A DNA stretch of 45,642 nt from Zetaproteobacteria bacterium CG1_02_55_237 (GTDB lineage Bacteria > Pseudomonadota > Zetaproteobacteria > Mariprofundales > Mariprofundaceae): the NCBI GenBank assembly GCA_001871195.1, contig MNXA01000023.1, positions 1-45,642 of the forward strand, read 5' to 3'. A model generated the notes under the pieces. It did no database searches. It saw only the letters and a program-made list of their open reading frames with translations, and was not told the origin of the DNA. Below, piece by piece: positions 420-19,360 of this stretch (position 1 is the first letter of the stretch; each line of letters begins with the position of its first letter). The position numbers and the translations under genes are program-made.

Positions 420-1226
420 ATGTCAATGCGATTCAATAGTGATTCCAGCCTTGCATGTGTGCTTGCCGCCATGCTTCTGGCCGGGTCGATCAGTATGCTG
501 CCAGCTCAGGCGCATGCCGAGACCAATCTGAATGCGGCTGCCAGAATATCCTTCGATAACAACGTCAACGGTTCACCCGACTCACCAAGCAAGGCGAATC
601 AACTTAGCGACAGCTACGAAACATTGAGTGCATCCGGGGTGTATTTCACGCCGCTGGATAAAGCGCAGACCTGGTATTTTATCGGGCAGCTCGGTGCGCT
701 TACCACCATTTACAATAAGTACAACAACCTCGACAGCTCCATGCTGGTGGGCAGTGCCGGGCTCTACAAGCAGCTTTCCTCCACCTGGTCCATTCAGGGT
801 ACAGGGCGTGGTTTCAGCCGCATCACCAAGCAGGTTGATCGTAATTCCAATGGCGTGGGCGCATCCCTTGAGCTAAAGAAACAGCTGACCAAAACCATTT
901 GGCTCAAGGGTGTTGGCGACTACGAGGTCAGCACAGCCAATCTCAAAGCCTACAGTTACACAGGCATCACCTGGGGTGCGAATCTCGGCTATTTGCCGTT
1001 TAAAGACACCTTTCTGAATCTCGGCTATAGCCATAACAGCCGCAAATTCAAGACTGCCCAGCTTTTCAAAACAAAGTCGCAAACGCTGTATGCCGAACTG
1101 TCGCAGCGCTTGTCGAAAAACTGGTATTTGACTGGAGGAGTTGCCGGTATGAAGAGCAAGTCGAACTACGCCGGAACAGCTTATACTAATTACATTGAAT
1201 CGATTGGTTTGAGCTTCAGCTACTAA
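420..1226 (+). CDS. Predicted outer-membrane beta-barrel protein
   Basis: From ATG 420 the product is 268 residues. A basic start and a hydrophobic stretch end in an Ala-His-Ala-Glu type signal peptidase I site near residue 33. The mature part is rich in alternating polar and aromatic residues (for example WYFIGQLGAL, GANLGYLPF, TFLNLGYSH). It ends in GLSFSY, a C-terminal aromatic typical of barrels inserted by BamA. The frame is open back to 237 inside the IS remnant, and ATG 387 with AAAGGGG at 369-375 is an alternative start, but the signal peptide favours 420 or 426. It is the first gene of a same-strand group with two repetitive secreted proteins, so it could be their export or anchoring partner (inference). 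No family is recognised. Confidence 0.75.
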   Translation: MSMRFNSDSSLACVLAAMLLAGSISMLPAQAHAETNLNAAARISFDNNVNGSPDSPSKANQLSDSYETLSASGVYFTPLDKAQTWYFIGQLGALTTIYNKYNNLDSSMLVGSAGLYKQLSSTWSIQGTGRGFSRITKQVDRNSNGVGASLELKKQLTKTIWLKGVGDYEVSTANLKAYSYTGITWGANLGYLPFKDTFLNLGYSHNSRKFKTAQLFKTKSQTLYAELSQRLSKNWYLTGGVAGMKSKSNYAGTAYTNYIESIGLSFSY

Positions 1227-1264
1227 AATAAAGATTCCCAAACGCCATCAGGAAGGAGATAGAT

Positions 1265-1705
1265 ATGAAAATCAAATTTGCAGTATTAAGTGTGGCCTGT
1301 GCCTTTTTCTTCGTCAGCGCTGCCTCAGCGGCGGATCAGGACGAATCTATGGGCGGAAGCTCCGGCGCAGCTGAGCAGTCAGCATCCGATCAGGGAGTAG
1401 GTGGCTTTGGTAGCGGTACGGGTATGGGTGCCGGGGGCAGCCTGGCTAGTCCCAGCAGTGTCGGGGGTGGTGTGGGCTCAACCACCGGCAACAGTGGCGC
1501 CGGCGCGCAATCCTTCGGTGGCGGTTTCACCCAACAGCAGGCACCCGGTTCTCTCCTTGCTCCAGCGGCGCCAGCGGCAGCGGGTGGAGCTGGTGGAGGC
1601 GGAGGCGCAGCAGGCGGAGGCGCAGCAGGCGGAGGCGCAGCAGGTGGAGGCGCAGCAGGTGGAGGCGCAGCAGGTGGAGCTCCAGTGACGACGCTGGTTC
1701 CATGA
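1265..1705 (+). CDS. Secreted Gly/Ala-rich repeat protein
   Basis: The product has 146 residues. A clear RBS, AAGGAG at 1253-1258, lies 6 bases before ATG. Residues 1-23 form a typical signal peptide ending in SAASAA. The mature protein has no charge after its first residues and is almost entirely Gly, Ala, Ser and Pro, with a GGFGSG motif near residue 47. It ends in near-perfect GGGAA repeats encoded by 15-bp DNA repeats. No cysteines remain after the signal peptide, and no enzymatic fold is likely. GGFGSG recurs twice in the next gene's product, which supports a shared function, perhaps as a structural or matrix component (inference). Its length probably varies between strains through the DNA repeat. 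Confidence 0.7.
   Translation: MKIKFAVLSVACAFFFVSAASAADQDESMGGSSGAAEQSASDQGVGGFGSGTGMGAGGSLASPSSVGGGVGSTTGNSGAGAQSFGGGFTQQQAPGSLLAPAAPAAAGGAGGGGGAAGGGAAGGGAAGGGAAGGGAAGGAPVTTLVP
1601..1675 (+). repeat. 15-bp tandem repeat, five copies, in frame
   Basis: GGAGGCGCAGCAGGC/T occurs five times head to tail (1601, 1616, 1631, 1646, 1661). The only difference is C or T at the last base. Each unit encodes five residues (Gly-Gly-Ala-Ala-Gly in one phase). Because the unit is a multiple of three, copy-number slippage would lengthen or shorten the protein without a frameshift. Confidence 0.95.
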
Positions 1706-1792
1706 TTCTATAAAAGTTATCTGTGCCTGCGTGTGACAGCCGGAATATGCGTTATTGAATAGATACCTCACCAACGATTGAGGAGAAGCAGA

Positions 1793-3868
1793 ATGGACCA
1801 TCATGATGAGGATTCACCAGGCAACGAAGGAAATAAATCACAGCTGTCACCCCTGATGCGAGCCCTTGTCGCAGGCCTGGGTATGACGGTATGGAGCTCG
1901 ATTGCCATAGCCGGAAGCGTACCGCTTCCCGATATCAAGGTTGTTGTGAGGAAGCATAGCGGTGGCATTGCGCACGTAACGAGAACAAACAAGGACGGGA
2001 TTTATAAATTCACCGGCCTGATGCCGGGAAAATACGACCTGACGATTGTCGGCAAGCGCGTTCAGGCAATCACGGTTGATGAAAAACGAACCATCGCTGG
2101 CATGTTGCGGCGCAATGAAGACGGCTCGATCACCTATACCTTCGATACAGCCCTCGGGCCTCCCGATATCAGCACGGGTACTTTTGGCACCGGCACGATT
2201 GGTCCTGAGGACTGCAATGACCCTGTTTGTGCAACGACGACCACAACGACAAGTACCACAGGTACGGAAACCTTCCACGACAGTACCAAGCACACCGATA
2301 CGGATACCTCGACGCTCACTCATGACATACTTACTCATGGCCCAGACACCATCGGGACCACGGGCACTGAAACCTTCCACGACAGTACCAAGCACACCGA
2401 TACGGATACCTCGACGCTCACTCATGACATACTTACTCATGGCCCAGACACCATCGGGACCACGGGCACTGAAACCGCGACTACCAACCCAACACTTACC
2501 AACCCAACGGATACGCAAACAACGGCCATCACCACGGGCCCTGACACCTGCGCCAAAATGATTGGAGGTACTTGTGGAACTCAGACGGGAACTACGCAGA
2601 CTGATTCCACGGACACCATCACGCGCACCATCGGCACCGACACAACCGGCACGCATACCATCGGCACCACGACCAACGTCACCAAGGCCACCAGCGTGCA
2701 GACCCATGCGGTTTTATTGACAAGTCCTCACACAACGACCACCAACATCACGACTGCTACGACGAGTGGGCCAGAGACCAAGGCCACCAGCGTGCAGACC
2801 CATGCGGTTTTATTGACAAGTCCTCACACAACGACCACCAATACCACAGCTTCTACAACGGTTGGTCCAGCGACCAAGGCTACCAGCGTGCAGACCACAG
2901 CAATCCTTTTGACGAGCGCTCACACAGCGATCACCAGCACCACAGCTGCTTCGACGACAGGCCCGGAGACAAAGGCCACCAGTTTGCAGACCCATGCGGT
3001 TCTGCTGACCAGTGCTCACACAACGACCACCAGCACCACAGCATCTATAACGGTTGGCCCATCAACCAAGGCCACCAGCATGCAGACCACTGCGATTCTT
3101 TTGACGAGCCCTGATACAACAAGCCCTCGCACGGCTGGGACTGATACCAAGGCCACAAGCACGACGGTTACTGGCACGACAGCAGGTACGCACCACACGG
3201 CTGTCCTGTTAACGACTGGATCAAGTCATACGACAGGCCTGATGCAGACGGCGAGCCATGCAACCAAGGCGACCAGCATGCAGACCAATGCGGTCCTTCT
3301 GACGAGTCCTGATACAACGAGTGCTCGCACGCTGGGGGCTGATACAAAAGCCACCAGCACGACGGATAGCAATGCGGTGGGCATGACAGGTACGAATGCG
3401 ACCGGCACAACAGGCACGGCCACCAGCACGGATACAACAGGCGACAACGCAGTGGGAGTCAGTATTACAGGCACAACAACGGGCAGCACAGCGGCTGCCA
3501 CGGGCACTCGCACTTCCGGTGTGATCGGGACCGCTTCCGCCACCAAGGGAGCCCCCGATAAAGCGGATGCAAAAGCAGATCATGAATCTCAAAAAGGGGG
3601 TGATAGCGGCTTTGGAGGCTTCGGGTCCGGTGTTGCTACCAATTCAGGCCCCGCATCTGGCACCGGCTTCGGAGGTTTCGGCAGCGGGCCTGGCCCCATG
3701 AGTCCGCCGATGGGTGGACCCATGGGCCCTCCGGTCGCTGGTCCGCCGGTAGGTGGACCGGCTGGCCCTGGTCCAATGGGTGGTCCGGGCGGAGCTGGCC
3801 CCATGGGTCCGATGGGGCCAATGGGTCCCGGTGGCCCCGGCAGGCCCGGCGGCGCTGCCGGACCTTAA
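1793..3868 (+). CDS. Secreted Thr-rich repeat protein with carboxypeptidase-regulatory-like N-domain and Gly/Pro tail
   Basis: The product is 691 residues from ATG 1793, preceded by AGGAG at 1781-1785. A TTG further upstream is less likely. A long charged n-region, then a hydrophobic stretch ending SIAIAG near residue 43, looks like a signal peptide. Residues about 45-110 resemble the carboxypeptidase-regulatory or Cna-B-like fold, with the typical TNKDGIYKFTGLMPGKYDLTI pattern in shortened form. Residues about 143-585 are extremely Thr-rich, with two exact 34-residue repeats and five imperfect 32-residue repeats. The tail has two GFGGFGSG motifs and then a collagen-like Gly-Pro-Met run. There are few Cys and little aromatic content. 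A mucin-like, possibly O-glycosylated extracellular or surface polymer is a reasonable inference. No named family is recognised. Confidence 0.75.
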   Translation: MDHHDEDSPGNEGNKSQLSPLMRALVAGLGMTVWSSIAIAGSVPLPDIKVVVRKHSGGIAHVTRTNKDGIYKFTGLMPGKYDLTIVGKRVQAITVDEKRTIAGMLRRNEDGSITYTFDTALGPPDISTGTFGTGTIGPEDCNDPVCATTTTTTSTTGTETFHDSTKHTDTDTSTLTHDILTHGPDTIGTTGTETFHDSTKHTDTDTSTLTHDILTHGPDTIGTTGTETATTNPTLTNPTDTQTTAITTGPDTCAKMIGGTCGTQTGTTQTDSTDTITRTIGTDTTGTHTIGTTTNVTKATSVQTHAVLLTSPHTTTTNITTATTSGPETKATSVQTHAVLLTSPHTTTTNTTASTTVGPATKATSVQTTAILLTSAHTAITSTTAASTTGPETKATSLQTHAVLLTSAHTTTTSTTASITVGPSTKATSMQTTAILLTSPDTTSPRTAGTDTKATSTTVTGTTAGTHHTAVLLTTGSSHTTGLMQTASHATKATSMQTNAVLLTSPDTTSARTLGADTKATSTTDSNAVGMTGTNATGTTGTATSTDTTGDNAVGVSITGTTTGSTAAATGTRTSGVIGTASATKGAPDKADAKADHESQKGGDSGFGGFGSGVATNSGPASGTGFGGFGSGPGPMSPPMGGPMGPPVAGPPVGGPAGPGPMGGPGGAGPMGPMGPMGPGGPGRPGGAAGP
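2267..2470 (+). repeat. Exact 102-bp tandem duplication inside the Thr-rich gene
   Basis: Positions 2267-2368 and 2369-2470 are identical over all 102 bases. The first six bases of a third unit (gaaacc) follow at 2471. The unit encodes 34 residues starting at ETFHDSTKHTD. Perfect identity, including silent sites, points to a recent duplication. Confidence 0.95.
2681..3160 (+). repeat. 96-bp imperfect tandem repeats, five units
   Basis: Units start at 2681, 2777, 2873, 2969 and 3065, exactly 96 bases apart. Each encodes a 32-residue repeat beginning TKATS and containing LLTS. Two further degenerate units begin near 3146 and 3263 with altered spacing. Units 1 and 2 are nearly identical at the DNA level and later ones have diverged. 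Confidence 0.9.
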
Positions 3869-3993
3869 TCGGATTCACTTCGGGTTTGTCTTGTGGATGC
3901 AGAAACGAGGGCAGGGGGCTTCGGCTGTCGGTGTCGCCTGAGCGTTGGGGAGCCTGAAAGCTGCCCATCAATGAAAAAATTGGATAGACATGC

Positions 3994-5877
3994 ATGAAAG
4001 CACTATATGTTGGCAAACTTGAATTTATCGGGGACGAACTGCTGCCCATGCTGGAACAGGCCGGCTATGAGGTGGACAGCGGCAATCCCGATCCCACACA
4101 ACATTACGATCTGGTGGTGGACAATGCATCCACCTCGGCTGGCGCAGTGCGCGCCCTTGTTGCCGGCATTGGCCAAAGCAAGGCGCACTACATCCTGATT
4201 TCCAGCAGTCGGGTGTATCCGGGCTTTTTCCGCCTGCGGCCATGGTGCGAGGATGAAGTGGATGTCTGTATTGATCTGTTTCAGTCCCTACCTCCTGCTG
4301 TGCTTGCTGCCAGAGCGACAGAAAGGGAGTTGCGGCTGTTGGCGCGAGGGCGTTTTCCCATCACGATTTTGCGGCCGGCTGGCGTGGATGGAGAAAATGC
4401 GCCGAATGGCATCACCCACTGGTTTGCTGACCGCATTCTGGATGGGGGGCTGATTGTTCTCCCGGATGGTGATCTGCCGACATACCGGCATGTTTCCTCC
4501 ACCGATCTGGCACGCGCGATTGTCACGGTGGCAGGGCGGGATGAAGCCTTCGATTGCGCGCTCAATGTAGCCAGTCAGGCCGTGCTGGGTTATTGGGGAC
4601 ATGCGGCCATGGTGCGCGACGGGCTTGGCGTGCCCTTGCGCTATGGCTATGTGCCAGCATGGTGCTGGCGGGCGGCCGGACTTTCCCTGCCAATGGGCGA
4701 ACTGGCTTCATCCTCATTCATTGAGCCATCGCCGATACTGCATCGTCTGGGTTGGCGCCCCGGCGATACCCTGGAATTTGTCACCAACCTTGCTCGTTAC
4801 TGCGCCGAACACAGGCAGCCTGGCGACAAGGCTGTGATTGAACGTGAACGGCGTGTGCTCAATGAGGCAGGGGGGGTGCCGCTGTACACCCCGGCAATTG
4901 AATCCCAGCCCGTGCCGCCGCACAAAACCCGGCAGTGGGCATTGCGCGGCTTTGGCGGCCGGCCGGCCAGCCTGAGCCTTGAGCGCATCGAGCATGTTTC
5001 ATCCTTCCCTTCACCCACTGTCAAGGTATGCGCACTGACGCTGACCGCTCCGGAGGAACGCTTTCTGCGCGGCGAATATCCGCAATATGGCGAACGCATC
5101 ATTGGTCACAACGCATTGCTGCAAGTGGTTCAACCTGGGGCCTCCGGACTTGATTTCGGTACCATGATGGTGCCGCTTTCGACTCTTCCCTGCGATGATC
5201 CCGAGTGCCCCTTCTGCATGCATCGCCAGCATGCGGTGCTGGGCATCACCTGCAACGGCTATGGCATGGGCATCTGCACCACGCCGCCCTCCCATCTGAT
5301 TCCCGCGCCGGAGGAGTTGGGCATGGCTGTCTTGCTCGCCGACCCTTTGGCAACCCTGCTGCATGCACTTTCAGTCCCGCTTGCCAACGATCAGGGAGCG
5401 GTATGGATTGCCGGACGCACTTTTGAAGCCGCACTTGTTGCATGGCTGGCACAGGATGCAGGCCGCCCGGTTGTGCATGTGGATCGCCGCGTATGGGCTC
5501 ATGCCGAGTTCCGCACACAGGCTGTCGGGGAGGCGCTGAAGCAGGTGCGCGAAGGCACACTCAGCGCACCAACCCTGGCTGTCGATTTTACCGGCTGCGG
5601 CGATGTGACCTGGCCGATGAGTCACGCCCTGGCGGCAGGCTCCTCGCTTTATGTCCGTCGCCGTCCGCTGGGCATTCCAAACAGCATTCACTGGCACGAA
5701 ATGTATGCCGCCGCACCGGTTCGGGCGCGGCTGGAAGAAGCCATCAGCAGACTGGAACAATGGTCCACATTCAGGAATCTGGAAGACCGTGTTGGCCCGG
5801 CCGTGCCGCTGGATATCTATTGGGATGCCTTGCTGCCGTCGCCCTTTTCCCTGCCCTGGCTGGAGGATCAAACATGA
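3994..5877 (+). CDS. Fusion protein: degenerate extended-SDR domain + MDR (zinc-alcohol-dehydrogenase-like) domain
   Basis: The product has 627 residues. Residues 1 to about 290 resemble NAD-dependent epimerase/dehydratases: an N-terminal Rossmann strand, LISSSRVYPG near 68-77, ITILRPAGVDG, and LNVAS. However, the glycine motif is damaged (VGKLEFIG) and residues 75-120 contain no YxxxK catalytic pair. Residues about 315-627 resemble medium-chain dehydrogenases: GERIIGHNALLQVVQPGA, a Cys cluster (LPCDDPECPFC), then a Rossmann-like part with VDFTGCGDV. The SDR half resembles that of the next gene (both begin MKAL, with a conserved AGY), so the two may derive from a duplication. The stop overlaps the next start by ATGA, so they are translationally coupled. 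The substrate is unknown; a sugar or nucleotide-sugar is a guess. The RBS is weak. Confidence 0.75.
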   Translation: MKALYVGKLEFIGDELLPMLEQAGYEVDSGNPDPTQHYDLVVDNASTSAGAVRALVAGIGQSKAHYILISSSRVYPGFFRLRPWCEDEVDVCIDLFQSLPPAVLAARATERELRLLARGRFPITILRPAGVDGENAPNGITHWFADRILDGGLIVLPDGDLPTYRHVSSTDLARAIVTVAGRDEAFDCALNVASQAVLGYWGHAAMVRDGLGVPLRYGYVPAWCWRAAGLSLPMGELASSSFIEPSPILHRLGWRPGDTLEFVTNLARYCAEHRQPGDKAVIERERRVLNEAGGVPLYTPAIESQPVPPHKTRQWALRGFGGRPASLSLERIEHVSSFPSPTVKVCALTLTAPEERFLRGEYPQYGERIIGHNALLQVVQPGASGLDFGTMMVPLSTLPCDDPECPFCMHRQHAVLGITCNGYGMGICTTPPSHLIPAPEELGMAVLLADPLATLLHALSVPLANDQGAVWIAGRTFEAALVAWLAQDAGRPVVHVDRRVWAHAEFRTQAVGEALKQVREGTLSAPTLAVDFTGCGDVTWPMSHALAAGSSLYVRRRPLGIPNSIHWHEMYAAAPVRARLEEAISRLEQWSTFRNLEDRVGPAVPLDIYWDALLPSPFSLPWLEDQT

Positions 5878-8057
5878 AAGCCCTTTTGCTTGGCGGTAAC
5901 CGCTATGTTGGCGTTGAAATTACCTGGCACATGCTGCGCGCAGGGTATGCGGTCACCGTTCTGGCCTTCGATTCCCCGCCGGCCGATATCCGCCCGCACA
6001 TCCGCTGGCTGGTAGCCGATCGCAACAATCAGGCGGCGCTGACCAGTCTTTTTGCCCATGAATATTTCGATGTGGTGATTGATAACATTGCCTACGAGCC
6101 GCAGCAGGTCGCCAGTTTAACCGGAGCCCTGCAAGGCAGGGCAGGGCGTTATGTGCTGACCAGCACCACCGACACCTATCCGCACAATTTTCCGCGCTAT
6201 TACGCCGAGGACCAGACGGAGGTGCGCGAATATGACCTGACCGACATTCCCTTGTCCGATCAATACAACTACGGCAAACGCTCCTGCGAGGCCGTGCTGA
6301 AGAAATCCGGCATTCCATGGACAGCACTGCGCCCCTGCATGGTGACCGGCCCGCGCGATAATCTGAATGGCGCGCCGGGGGGGCGGCGAATCGACTGGTT
6401 CGAGGAATCTGCGCGCAGCCATTTTTGGCCGCAGCGTGTGCTCGATGGCGGACCTTTGCTGCTTAGTCTGGAAGACGAATCGATTTTTAAAATGATCTGG
6501 ATCGGCGATCTGGCTCGGGCCTACACCCATGTGCTCTCGCATCCGGAAACCATCGGGCAAGCCTACAATGTGACCGGTGATGAAATCTGGACCAATGAAC
6601 GTCTGGTGCGTGCGCATGCAGCCGCAGCAGGCATAACACCGGAAATAGTGCGGGTGCCGCATGCGCTTTTTGAACAGGCCGGGCTGGATTATTCGCCCGT
6701 CTTCGGCACCTCCGCCAACTGGACGGTTGCCGATAATGCCAAGCTCAAGGCAAGCGGCTGGAAACCGACCCCCGCCGAACAGTGGCTGCCCTTTTTGCTC
6801 GAAGCCAACGCGCCGCCCAATTCCCGAACCTGGTATCACACCCGCATTCAGGAAATTGCGCTGGCCCGTCATGTGCAGCGCAAACAGGCCCGCGAAAGTC
6901 TGCTGCCTGCCGCCATGGAACAGCAGCCAATCATGCCGGATTTTGACCCAATGCTTTCAGATTCCCCTCTTGCCGGACATCATGAAGCCGAGGCAAGCCT
7001 CATGTGGCAACAACGGGTGATGCAGCAGGTCTCTGGCAATGTTCCCCTGCCGGAATTTTACAAGACCTTCCGTGGTGCGACCGTCAGTGGCATCGGGGTC
7101 GGAACCTGGATGGGCGATACCTCAAGCGCCACCGATGTGCGATATATTGAAACACTCGTGCATGCCGCCAGCCGCGGCATCAATGTATTCGATACCGCCA
7201 TCAATTATCGTCATATGCAGGCCGAACGCTGCGTGGGCAGCGCAGTGCAGCAACTGGTGAAAAGTGGTATTCCGCGGCAGGCCCTGCTGGTGGCCAGCAA
7301 GGGCGGCTACATCACCCATGATGCTGCAGATGCACGCAACCCAAATGATTATCTGCGTCAGGAATATCTGGACTCCGGCCTGATTTCCGAGGAGGAAATG
7401 GCGCGCAGCCATGCCATCAATCCGCAATTCATCCGCCAGCAGATCGGACAAAGCCTGAGTAATCTGAATCTCGAAAGCGTGGATATCTATTATCTGCACA
7501 ACCCGGAAGACGCCTTGGCAGCGCTCGGAGAAAAGGCTTTCTATAAGTTGTTGACGGAAACTTTTGCCGCTCTTGAGGAATTCGTGGCTGCCGGAAAGAT
7601 AGGCTGCTATGGACTGGCCACATGGCACGCTTTCCGTGTTCCCAAAGACGATCCTCGCCATATGTCTATGGCTAAAGCCATCAAGGCAGCCCGCGATGCG
7701 GCAGGCAGCGGGCAGCATCATTTCGAGGTGATCCAATTACCCTTCAATATCAGGGATAATCAGGCGCTGATGCTGCCAACCCAGCGGGTCGGCCGCGTTC
7801 TCCTGCCCGCGCTCAAGGCCGCCGAAAAATTGGGGCTGTATGTGATGAGCAGCGCCAGCGTGTTGCAGGGCGAAGGCATCGCCGATGCCGAAGCGCCGCG
7901 CCTGCTGGCGGCCGCCCCCGGATATACCCTGATCACGGCAGCGCTTCAGGTGGGCCGAAGCACGCCGGGGATCGGTACGGCACTGGTCGGCATGCGCCGC
8001 ATGCACAGCGTCGAGGAAGCCTTGGCTGTAGCGCACATGCCGGTTTTGCAGGATTGA
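5874..8057 (+). CDS. Fusion protein: extended SDR + aldo/keto reductase
   Basis: The product has 727 residues, starting at the ATG that overlaps the preceding stop. Residues 1 to about 330 form an extended SDR: GGNRYVG for NAD(P) binding, TSTTDTYP, the catalytic pair Tyr131 and Lys135 (YNYGK), and RPCMVTGPRD. This is the epimerase/dehydratase type. Residues about 390-727 form an aldo/keto reductase with the expected tetrad: Asp440 and Tyr445 (DTAINY), Lys476 (VASKGG) and His542 (YYLHNPED). Both halves therefore look catalytically competent, unlike the SDR half of the upstream partner. A long linker, about 330-390, separates them. Two reductive activities in one chain suggest channelling of a keto intermediate, such as a deoxysugar (inference). 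Substrate and pathway are unknown. Confidence 0.8.
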   Translation: MKALLLGGNRYVGVEITWHMLRAGYAVTVLAFDSPPADIRPHIRWLVADRNNQAALTSLFAHEYFDVVIDNIAYEPQQVASLTGALQGRAGRYVLTSTTDTYPHNFPRYYAEDQTEVREYDLTDIPLSDQYNYGKRSCEAVLKKSGIPWTALRPCMVTGPRDNLNGAPGGRRIDWFEESARSHFWPQRVLDGGPLLLSLEDESIFKMIWIGDLARAYTHVLSHPETIGQAYNVTGDEIWTNERLVRAHAAAAGITPEIVRVPHALFEQAGLDYSPVFGTSANWTVADNAKLKASGWKPTPAEQWLPFLLEANAPPNSRTWYHTRIQEIALARHVQRKQARESLLPAAMEQQPIMPDFDPMLSDSPLAGHHEAEASLMWQQRVMQQVSGNVPLPEFYKTFRGATVSGIGVGTWMGDTSSATDVRYIETLVHAASRGINVFDTAINYRHMQAERCVGSAVQQLVKSGIPRQALLVASKGGYITHDAADARNPNDYLRQEYLDSGLISEEEMARSHAINPQFIRQQIGQSLSNLNLESVDIYYLHNPEDALAALGEKAFYKLLTETFAALEEFVAAGKIGCYGLATWHAFRVPKDDPRHMSMAKAIKAARDAAGSGQHHFEVIQLPFNIRDNQALMLPTQRVGRVLLPALKAAEKLGLYVMSSASVLQGEGIADAEAPRLLAAAPGYTLITAALQVGRSTPGIGTALVGMRRMHSVEEALAVAHMPVLQD

Positions 8058-16025: not shown

Positions 16026-17117
16026 TTATTCCCGGCCCATGCGCATGGCGAAGTCCTCCGGATTGACAGCATTGGCCAGCGCTTCTTCATATTCGACAAG
16101 GTCATCTTCCACGAGTTTCTGCAGGTGTAGATCGAAGGTTTGGCTGCCGTATAGCGCATGACCCTCTTCCATGGCACGTGGAATCTCACGCCAACGATCA
16201 ACATCAAGCATGAAATGTTTGATCACCGAATTGCGAACCATGATTTCCAGCGCCACGATGCGGCCCTTGCCATTTTTCAGGGGTAAGAGTTTTTGTACAA
16301 TAATAGCACGCACATTTTCAGCCAGACGCTTGCGTACAGTCGCATGCTCATCCTGAGTGAATGCAGCCATAATGCGCTGCATGGCTCCGGTTGCCGTTGT
16401 GGCATGCACAGTCGCCATGACGAGGTGGCCGGTTTCGGCTGCCTGCAGGGCAGATTGAACGACGGCTCTGTCACGCGCCTCGCCGACGACAATGATATCC
16501 GGTGCCTCACGCAAGGCATCGCTCATGCCTTGGGCAAAGGTTCCCACATCGCGCCCGATTTCCCGCTGGGATACAGTTCCCTGTTGTTCATTGCTGTAAC
16601 CGAACTCGATCGGATCCTCAATGGTGACAGCATGTATCGCTCTGTGCCGAACAATGTGATCAAGCATGGCTGCCAGCGTTGTGCTTTTTCCCGAACCTGT
16701 AGCTCCACCCATAAAAATCAGGCCATTGCGGTATTCGGCAATCTTGCGCACCACTTCCGGCAGGCGCAAATCTCCAAAGCTTGGAATTTTTATGGGGATG
16801 ATACGAGCAACCAGACCAAAATTATTCTGGGTTCGCATCACATGAATACGAAAGCGTGCTGTATTTCCCAGATGGTAATGAAAATCAAGATGCTGTAAGG
16901 ATTCCACATCAACGGCACTGTCCAGACTGCTGCTAAGGTGATGGATCATTTCAATGACCTGATCACGGTCGGGGGGTGAATAACGCTCGGCAGAGATGGT
17001 GACAATACTGCCGTGGAGTCGCATACGAATGCGATCGCCGGTGCGAATGATCAGGTCCGAGGCGTTGTTTTTACAGGCAATTTTGAGCAGCTCATCAATG
17101 GAAGGCGCCTCAGCCAT
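16026..17117 (-). CDS. Third PilT-family ATPase (PilT/PilU paralogue)
   Basis: The product has 363 residues and is a type II/IV secretion ATPase. Walker A is GGATGSGKST, the Asp box VTIEDPIEF, Walker B DIIVVGEARD, and the His box VMATVHATTATGAMQRI. All ATP-handling motifs are intact. The AIRNLIRE element of PilT, linked to retraction, is replaced by VIKHFMLD, and the region after it is diverged. It starts at ATG 17117 behind AGGAG with a 7-base spacer and follows pilU by 15 bases. It may be an accessory retraction motor or regulate PilT/PilU hexamers (inference). It belongs to neither PilT nor PilU proper. Confidence 0.85.
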   Translation of the reverse strand: MAEAPSIDELLKIACKNNASDLIIRTGDRIRMRLHGSIVTISAERYSPPDRDQVIEMIHHLSSSLDSAVDVESLQHLDFHYHLGNTARFRIHVMRTQNNFGLVARIIPIKIPSFGDLRLPEVVRKIAEYRNGLIFMGGATGSGKSTTLAAMLDHIVRHRAIHAVTIEDPIEFGYSNEQQGTVSQREIGRDVGTFAQGMSDALREAPDIIVVGEARDRAVVQSALQAAETGHLVMATVHATTATGAMQRIMAAFTQDEHATVRKRLAENVRAIIVQKLLPLKNGKGRIVALEIMVRNSVIKHFMLDVDRWREIPRAMEEGHALYGSQTFDLHLQKLVEDDLVEYEEALANAVNPEDFAMRMGRE

Positions 17118-17132
17118 AATTATCTCCTGTTG

Positions 17133-18296
17133 CTAAATCTTCAATCCCGAGTCACCGCTTCCGGAAAGTTTGTCCAGCGAACTTCCTCCAGATTCTTCAC
17201 CACTGTCCTCAAGTTTGGCCATCTTGATTTTCAGACGCAGGTCATTCACGGCATCGGCGTTACGCAAGGCCTCATCCTCAGCGATGATGCCGTCACGCCA
17301 AAGCTTCAGAAGATGCTGGTCGAAGGTCTGCATGCCATAGGTTCCACCATCGGCCATGGCTTCCTTGATGCCCGAAATATCACCCTTCTTGATCAGGTCG
17401 CTGATGCGCGGGGAGTTGATCATAATTTCGATAGCCGGAGCGCGTTTACCATCCAGCGTGCGTACCAGTCGTTGCGACAAAATGGCACGAATATTCATGG
17501 CCAGATTGAGCACAACCTGATCATGCATTTCACGCGGGAAGAAGTTAAGGACACGTTCAAGCCCCTGATTTGCATTGTTGGCATGCAAGGTGGCCAGGCA
17601 GAGATGCCCGGTCTCGGCAAATTCAAGCCCATGCTCCATCGTTTTTCGGTCGCGGATTTCACCGATCAGAATCACATCAGGTGCCTGACGCAGGGTATTC
17701 TTCAAAGCATTCTCAAATTCCAGTGTGTCAGTGCCTACCTCACGCTGGGTAATAACACTTTTCTTATGTTCGTGCACAAATTCGATAGGGTCCTCAACCG
17801 TGATGATGTGCCCGGCCTGATTGCTATTGCGCCAATCGATCATGCCGGCAAGCGAGGTTGATTTGCCGCTGCCTGTGCCGCCGACCATGATGATCATGCC
17901 GTTCTTGGCCATGATAATGTCCTTGAAGGACTGCGGCAGACCAAGGCTGTCGATGGTGGGGATGGTGGTTTTGATCTGGCGAATCACCATGCCGACGTTG
18001 CCGCGCTGACGGAAAATATTGACCCGGAACCGGCCCATTTCGGGATAAGAAAGGGCGAGGTTCATCTCAAGCAGCTCAGCAAATGCAGCACGCTGCTTTT
18101 CATTCATCGTTGAATTGGCCAGCTGTTCGCACTGAATCGGGTTGAGTGGTTCCTGCTTAAGCGGATAAACCACGCCCTCAATGCGGTAGGCGGGGGGGAG
18201 ACCGGCAGCAATGTACAGGTCAGATGAATCCTTCTTGACCATGACCATCAGCAATTGTTTGATACTTAAAGCCTGTCCAGGTGGGTTGCTGCTCAT
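17133..18296 (-). CDS. pilU: Type IV pilus retraction ATPase PilU
   Basis: The product has 387 residues. PilU is a PilT-dependent second retraction motor at the cytoplasmic base of type IV pili. HIITVEDPIEFVHEHKKS followed by ITQREVGTDT is characteristic of PilU rather than PilT. Walker A is GGTGSGKST and Walker B VILIGEIRD, with the His box CLATLHANNANQGLERV. The C-terminus is a Ser/Gly-rich tail ending SGDSGLKI. It follows pilT by 17 bases with its own RBS, so the three ATPases form one operon. No other pilus genes occur in the window. Confidence 0.92.
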   Translation of the reverse strand: MSSNPPGQALSIKQLLMVMVKKDSSDLYIAAGLPPAYRIEGVVYPLKQEPLNPIQCEQLANSTMNEKQRAAFAELLEMNLALSYPEMGRFRVNIFRQRGNVGMVIRQIKTTIPTIDSLGLPQSFKDIIMAKNGMIIMVGGTGSGKSTSLAGMIDWRNSNQAGHIITVEDPIEFVHEHKKSVITQREVGTDTLEFENALKNTLRQAPDVILIGEIRDRKTMEHGLEFAETGHLCLATLHANNANQGLERVLNFFPREMHDQVVLNLAMNIRAILSQRLVRTLDGKRAPAIEIMINSPRISDLIKKGDISGIKEAMADGGTYGMQTFDQHLLKLWRDGIIAEDEALRNADAVNDLRLKIKMAKLEDSGEESGGSSLDKLSGSGDSGLKI

Positions 18297-18313
18297 ATTC
18301 GTTTCTCCTCCTA

Positions 18314-19360
18314 TTACTGTTCGCCGAATAGCTTACGGTTGCTGCATTTCTCAAGAGCGGCCTGCTGGGTAATCTTGCGAGCCTTAAGCAGCTGTTGAAG
18401 GTTTTGATCCAGCGTCTGCATACCATCGCGCTGTGAAGTTTGCAGTACCGAAACCATCTGAGGAATCTTATTTTCACGAATCAAATTACGTATGGCAGCG
18501 GTGCCAAGCATGATTTCATGCGCCGCGACACGACCATTGCCATCAGCAGTTTTAAGCAGACTCTGTGAAATAACTGCCTGTAGAGATTCAGAAAGCATCG
18601 AGCGAACCATTGCTTGTTCGGCAGATGGAAAGACGTCGATAATACGATCAATTGTCTTCGGCGCAGAGGAGGTGTGCAGGGTGCCGAATACCATGTGGCC
18701 CGTTTCAGCAGCAGTCAGGGCAAGGCGGATTGTTTCAAGATCGCGCATTTCACCAACCAGAATAACATCGGGATCTTCACGCAGGGCGCTACGCAATGCG
18801 TTATCAAAGGATTTCGTATGCGGCCCAAGTTCGCGCTGGGATATAAGGCAACTTTTAGAGCGGTGAACGAATTCGATTGGGTCCTCAATGGTCAGGATAT
18901 GGCCTTTTTCAATCTCGTTGCGATGATTAATCATGGCGGCAAGGGTTGTGGATTTACCTGACCCTGTCGGACCGGTAACCAGACAAATACCCCTGGGTTT
19001 CATGATAATCTCCTTGAAAATGTCAGGTGCCTGAAGTGTCTCAAGAGACAGCACTTCACTGGGGATGACTCGGAAAACAGCAGCCATGCCGCGATTCTGC
19101 CAATAGGAATTAACACGAAAGCGGGCCAGGTCGCCAAGCGCAAATGAAAAGTCCAGTTCCAGGTTCTCTTCAAAATGCTTTCTCTGATCATCGGTCATGA
19201 TGTCATACACCATGGATTGAACGGTGCGTGCATCAATTTCGGGAACCTTGATGCGGGTCATGTCACCATGAATACGAATCATGGGTGGCTCGCCCGCTGA
19301 TATATGCAAATCGGATGCCTTGTTCTTTACCGTGAAGGCAAGCAGCTCGGATATGTCCAT
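18314..19360 (-). CDS. pilT: Type IV pilus retraction ATPase PilT
   Basis: The product has 348 residues, standard length. It depolymerises pili and drives twitching and DNA uptake. Walker A is GPTGSGKSTT, the Asp box LTIEDPIEFVH, Walker B VILVGEMRD, and the His box FGTLHTSSAPKTIDRI. The AIRNLIRE motif needed for retraction is present in full. It is first in the pilT-pilU-paralogue operon. The 141 bases between it and the divergent mazG contain the promoters for both, including an AT-rich palindrome. Confidence 0.96.
   Translation of the reverse strand: MDISELLAFTVKNKASDLHISAGEPPMIRIHGDMTRIKVPEIDARTVQSMVYDIMTDDQRKHFEENLELDFSFALGDLARFRVNSYWQNRGMAAVFRVIPSEVLSLETLQAPDIFKEIIMKPRGICLVTGPTGSGKSTTLAAMINHRNEIEKGHILTIEDPIEFVHRSKSCLISQRELGPHTKSFDNALRSALREDPDVILVGEMRDLETIRLALTAAETGHMVFGTLHTSSAPKTIDRIIDVFPSAEQAMVRSMLSESLQAVISQSLLKTADGNGRVAAHEIMLGTAAIRNLIRENKIPQMVSVLQTSQRDGMQTLDQNLQQLLKARKITQQAALEKCSNRKLFGEQ

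Follow-up and report, generated by a model that had tools for sequence, protein, structure and literature searches.

A conserved five-gene cassette encoding a predicted outer-membrane barrel, two putatively exported low-complexity proteins, and two fused oxidoreductases: a probable cell-surface coat module

The window that we analysed is an entire contig (positions 1–45,642) from the 2.33 Mb genome of Zetaproteobacteria bacterium CG1_02_55_237. Near its beginning lie five intact open reading frames on the forward strand (426–8057, +), located upstream of a plsX-fabH-fabD-fabG-fabF run in which plsX was assigned by Pfam and fabH, fabD, fabG, and fabF were recognised from sequence. The first gene (426–1226, +) encodes a predicted outer-membrane beta-barrel protein with a signal-peptide-like N-terminus, 12 predicted strands, and a C-terminal aromatic residue; the second (1265–1705, +), preceded by the RBS-like sequence AAGGAGAT, encodes a small, putatively exported protein that is rich in Gly and contains a GFGSGTGMG block; and the third (1793–3868, +) encodes a putatively exported Thr-rich protein comprising an N-domain, a Thr-rich middle, and a GFGSG/Gly-Pro-Met tail. 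These are followed by two fusion enzymes: fusion 1 (3994–5877, +), in which an SDR-like domain is joined to an MDR domain, and fusion 2 (5874–8057, +), which combines an epimerase-type SDR with an aldo-keto reductase (AKR) and the start codon of which shares an ATGA with the fusion 1 stop codon. The initial annotation had described five same-strand genes at 420–8057, and these are real; position 420 lies two codons upstream of the Met at 426, where the orthologs begin. It had also placed the genes next to an IS end. The corresponding segment at the contig end (1–237, +) is a candidate C-terminal fragment of a transposase-associated protein, being 51–56% identical to hypothetical or unannotated plasmid pieces with transposases no more than about 1 kb away; an IS end is therefore plausible, but unproven, given that the fragment matches no Pfam or PHROG family. 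Elsewhere in the window, three tandem type II/IV secretion (PilT/T2SSE-type) ATPase genes, coding for 363, 387, and 348 aa, occupy 3.3 kb on the reverse strand (16026–19360, −).

A scan of 84,980 species genomes with fusion 1, sensitive to close relatives only, recovered three loci in Sulfuritalea metagenome-assembled genomes (MAGs) at 77% identity, along with one spurious match in Lamprocystis (L008), where a chance peptide (GYWGHAAM) falls within a hydrogenase gene region. One of the Sulfuritalea loci (L006, 5847–14085) contains the complete five-gene set in the same order as in the window. In the other two (L005 and L007), the contig end falls inside the Thr-rich gene, probably because of tandem repeats like those in the window copy, and each MAG concerned has a matching half at the end of another contig (L035 for L005, L023 for L007), from which we infer that the respective halves belong together. 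The search thus bears out the proposed co-occurrence of the five genes in order, which is retained in Sulfuritalea, a different genus in a different class. Between the window and Sulfuritalea, the enzymes are 71–77% identical and the barrel 61–63%, and the ATGA overlap between the two fusion genes is kept in all eight loci. Four regions (the barrel, the N-domain of the Thr-rich protein, and both enzymes) gave dN/dS values of 0.09–0.33 between genomes, with dS near saturation in the widest comparisons. The five genes are a real cassette, with an order kept in distantly related bacteria, and this cassette is under purifying selection.

Within the window's class, the barrel turned up in a single genome of 78, and fusion 1 is in none of 60 relatives, so that, judged by distribution, the cassette looks horizontally acquired. 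Its GC content (0.51–0.65, vs 0.54 in the remainder of the contig) is no clean outlier, and we found fusion 1 on no plasmid and neither fusion 1 nor the barrel in any virus. We also considered that these might be stalk genes of iron oxidisers, a reading that is unsupported: the barrel is rare in the class, and the published stalk candidates are the xag genes (PMC4643136).

The assignment of the first gene product as an outer-membrane barrel is backed by structure prediction. The best of five AlphaFold2 models, built from an input of only four sequences, has 12 strands, with pLDDT 80.8 and pTM 0.72 (the other four models scored 25.5–62.9), and describes a closed, even-stranded barrel behind an N-terminal export signal, the signal peptide being recognised by eye. 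Foldseek comparison of this model with the PDB retrieved many outer-membrane barrels, with E-values down to 2e-9, in generic matches only, with TM ≤0.61 among the first matches by query length, and no family stood out clearly; Pfam, PHROG, and NCBIfam likewise yielded no named barrel family (in NCBIfam, only a sub-threshold chance match). The protein therefore resembles OmpG, CymA, KdgM, and EspP in being a single transmembrane barrel, with 12 strands predicted, but differs from them in its limited structural similarity (the same TM ceiling among the listed top matches) and in belonging to no sequence family. The resemblance of plug-less single-domain barrels to substrate-specific porins such as OmpG, CymA, and KdgM, which appear in the Foldseek list, raises the idea of an uptake and conversion module, in which the barrel would act as a porin admitting a polyol or a sugar-like compound, the Thr-rich and Gly-rich proteins would capture this substrate at the surface, and the enzymes, whose MDR and AKR domains most resemble glucose and galactose dehydrogenases, would oxidise or reduce it. 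We regard this as improbable: the set includes no inner-membrane transporter or periplasmic binding protein, the catalytic motif of the MDR domain is altered, and a receptor role sits poorly with a low-complexity polymer.

The Thr-rich protein has a tripartite organisation. Its N-domain (1913–2155, +) is probably a beta-sandwich of the CarboxypepD_reg/SdrD_B type (SdrD_B E 1.1e-5) that scores 26 bits in the window copy against a curated Pfam cut-off of 29.7; homologous paralogs exceed the CarboxypepD_reg cut-off (54.9 and 59.6 bits), and the domain is 64–71% identical to those of two cassette orthologs. The middle contains tandem repeats (2255–3120, +) with units of 102 bp (2255–2476, 97% matches) and 96 bp (2681–3120). 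Threonine makes up 35–43% of the middle in the four copies, and BLAST found no alignment between the window copy and that of L006; composition is conserved and sequence is not, as in mucin-like segments. The tail (3620–3868, +) contains FGSG blocks at 3620–3631 and 3677–3688 and a Gly-Pro-Met-rich end. Earlier it had been called collagen-like, a description that we abandoned: the longest Gly-X-Y run in the window protein is 8 (shuffle P 0.0175), whereas in the L006 ortholog it is only 5 and is located in the Thr-rich middle, outside the tail, so that long Gly-X-Y repeats are not kept. The protein as a whole is akin to secreted CarboxypepD_reg/SdrD_B proteins (PF13620, PF17210) through its N-domain, as are the paralogs, but differs by the mucin-like segment and the GFGSG/Gly-Pro-Met tail, with no LPXTG-type anchor seen.

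Additional secreted proteins of the CarboxypepD_reg/SdrD_B type, with a similar Gly/Met/Pro-rich tail, are encoded upstream of the barrel in L023 (2605–3993, −) and L034 (5056–6603, +). Such extra N-domain paralogs are found in both cassette-bearing Sulfuritalea MAGs, and a profile of the N-domain gave no strong match in any other genome among 250 from the family of Sulfuritalea; matches in Rhodocyclaceae outside one of these MAGs, Sulfuritalea sp. bin.273 (G061), were judged generic, involving very long open reading frames and marginal scores.

The Gly-rich protein was originally characterised as a Gly/Ala repeat protein. A Gly/Ala tandem repeat is indeed seen at 1597–1679 in the window copy, but it is specific to that copy and absent from the orthologs. 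The motif said to be shared with the Thr-rich protein proved more durable: a GFGSG block, the FGSG core of which lies at 1406–1417 (+) in the Gly-rich gene, is common to both proteins in all four gene sets, and a variant, AFGSG, occurs in one extra paralog. Within single proteins, FGSG is not rare for such a composition (shuffle P 0.007–0.07), and the case for the block accordingly rests on conservation. All three surface proteins keep signal-peptide-like N-termini in Sulfuritalea, as read from sequence, in line with the export originally proposed.

The two fusion enzymes show no export signals in sequence. Their N-terminal SDR halves are about 27% identical, pointing to an old duplication. 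Of the four oxidoreductase domains, the two in fusion 1 no longer have their catalytic motifs: inspection of the alignment shows that YxxxK is absent from the SDR-like half, and in the MDR half GHE is replaced by GHN in all eight homologues. The latter half is closest to archaeal glucose 1-dehydrogenases of the MDR superfamily (profile E ~3e-4), from which fusion 1 differs by this substitution and by the placement of the domain behind the motif-less SDR-like one. Fusion 2 retains both of its motifs. Its SDR half matches Pfam Epimerase (40.6 bits vs a cut-off of 20.9) and keeps YxxxK, with Y131 and K135 invariant; its C-terminal half, which begins at about 7056, matches Aldo_ket_red (86.2 bits vs a cut-off of 24) and has an invariant D440, Y445, K476, and H542 tetrad. 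In keeping this D-Y-K-H tetrad, it resembles L-galactose dehydrogenase and Kv-beta type AKRs, but it differs from known aldo-keto reductases in being fused behind an epimerase-type SDR, in a gene overlapping fusion 1. The papers searched held no description of four oxidoreductase domains paired in two overlapping genes, and a keyword search of one library for a related described system returned nothing relevant. Separately, an AKR 36.8% identical to that of fusion 2 is encoded on a plasmid of Nostoc sp. NIES-3756 (L009, 7926–9131), inside a non-ribosomal peptide synthetase cluster.

A profile search for fusion 2 in 398 genomes of the phylum identified it, at about 60% identity, in four genomes of genus g56, from another class, at full length in three and truncated at a contig end in the other. 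In all four, fusion 1 precedes fusion 2 with the ATGA overlap preserved; in G823, fusion 1 does not run in one open frame, its N-terminal part lying outside. These four genomes yielded no barrel homologue, a weak barrel-like match on contig C495 of G823 being an autotransporter-like protein that we judged unrelated. The enzymes, then, serve some function for which this barrel is not needed. As read from sequence, the pair is divergent from polyhydroxyalkanoate-synthesis-like genes in three of the four genomes, and in two it is followed by a secreted DUF3472 gene (recognised by Pfam in one and by similarity in the other). In G823 (L058, 1–3358), the pair lies near genes for an Ala-rich repeat protein (at least 788 aa), the C-terminal part of which resembles, by eye, a type I secretion end, and for a secreted DUF3472 protein.

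These stand-alone pairs lend weight to the possibility that the cassette comprises two functionally separate modules, a surface trio and an independent cytosolic redox pair with a metabolic task of its own, which were linked once and then spread together. The pair occurs alone in g56, in three of the four genomes beside the polyhydroxyalkanoate-synthesis-like genes, and the enzymes are more conserved than the barrel across the same genomes. Conversely, the five genes stand together and in order in all copies with a readable neighbourhood, across two classes, and an envelope link is possible in g56 itself, considering the secreted DUF3472 gene in two genomes and the Ala-rich repeat protein in one; the enzymes may contribute to surface layers in both settings. 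We consider two such modules a real possibility, though one that we place slightly behind a single surface-coat module.

The g56 genomes also weaken the claim of the initial annotation that the enzymes serve the Thr-rich polymer, which we find unsupported. In its specific form, the enzymes would produce a (deoxy)sugar for attachment to Thr residues, a scheme that the conserved composition of the Thr-rich middle, the catalytic motifs kept by the epimerase-type SDR and the AKR, and the co-transfer of the five genes would suit. However, the cassette encodes no glycosyltransferase, oligosaccharyltransferase, or nucleotidyltransferase, half of the oxidoreductase domains are without catalytic motifs, and the enzymes are present in genomes that yielded no barrel homologue; we give this scheme little credence.

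Our favoured explanation, held tentatively and at somewhat less than even confidence for the whole, is that the cassette is a horizontally transferred surface-coat module. The combination of three proteins with export-type N-termini and two non-exported fusions, travelling as a five-gene unit, probably builds an unusual cell-surface coat. The Thr-rich protein would be a mucin-like extended surface polymer, with the beta-sandwich N-domain and the GFGSG/Gly-Pro-Met tail as its assembly ends; the Gly-rich protein, sharing the GFGSG block, might co-assemble with this polymer or cap it; and the barrel would export, anchor, or nucleate it in the outer membrane. To this same envelope layer, the two enzymes would contribute a modified sugar or another small building block of that kind, a coupling that we infer and that is the least certain step, since the pair also occurs independently of the barrel. 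Support for the surface-coat module comes from the complete synteny of L006 and two further copies with matching half-loci, from purifying selection and the barrel model, from the conserved N-domain and tail flanking an unalignable middle of conserved composition, from the GFGSG block shared by two different exported proteins, and from the extra N-domain paralogs in the cassette MAGs, with no strong match elsewhere in the 250 genomes. Against it stand the enzyme pair in four genomes without a barrel homologue, the likeness of the barrel to no known exporter beyond the general fold, and the lack of a glycosyltransferase, secretion ATPase, or polymerase within the five-gene set.

A bolder version, which we think unlikely, is a new and mobile Gram-negative system for surface polymers: a dedicated 12-strand barrel would recognise exported low-complexity proteins by a shared GFGSG-type tail, and two redox fusions, with half of their domains pseudoenzymes, would provide a specific modification. 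If the shared tail and the barrel do act together, they would offer a compact means of exporting or assembling surface polymers. Two of the cassette proteins match no searched family and the third exported one matches no more than a general domain; the question can be put to the test with the intact Sulfuritalea locus and the enzyme pair that stands alone. The MAG that contains the intact locus (G061) carries two cassette copies, L006 and L005+L035, in different neighbourhoods, belonging to one cell or to two strains; their fusion 1 copies are 82% identical.
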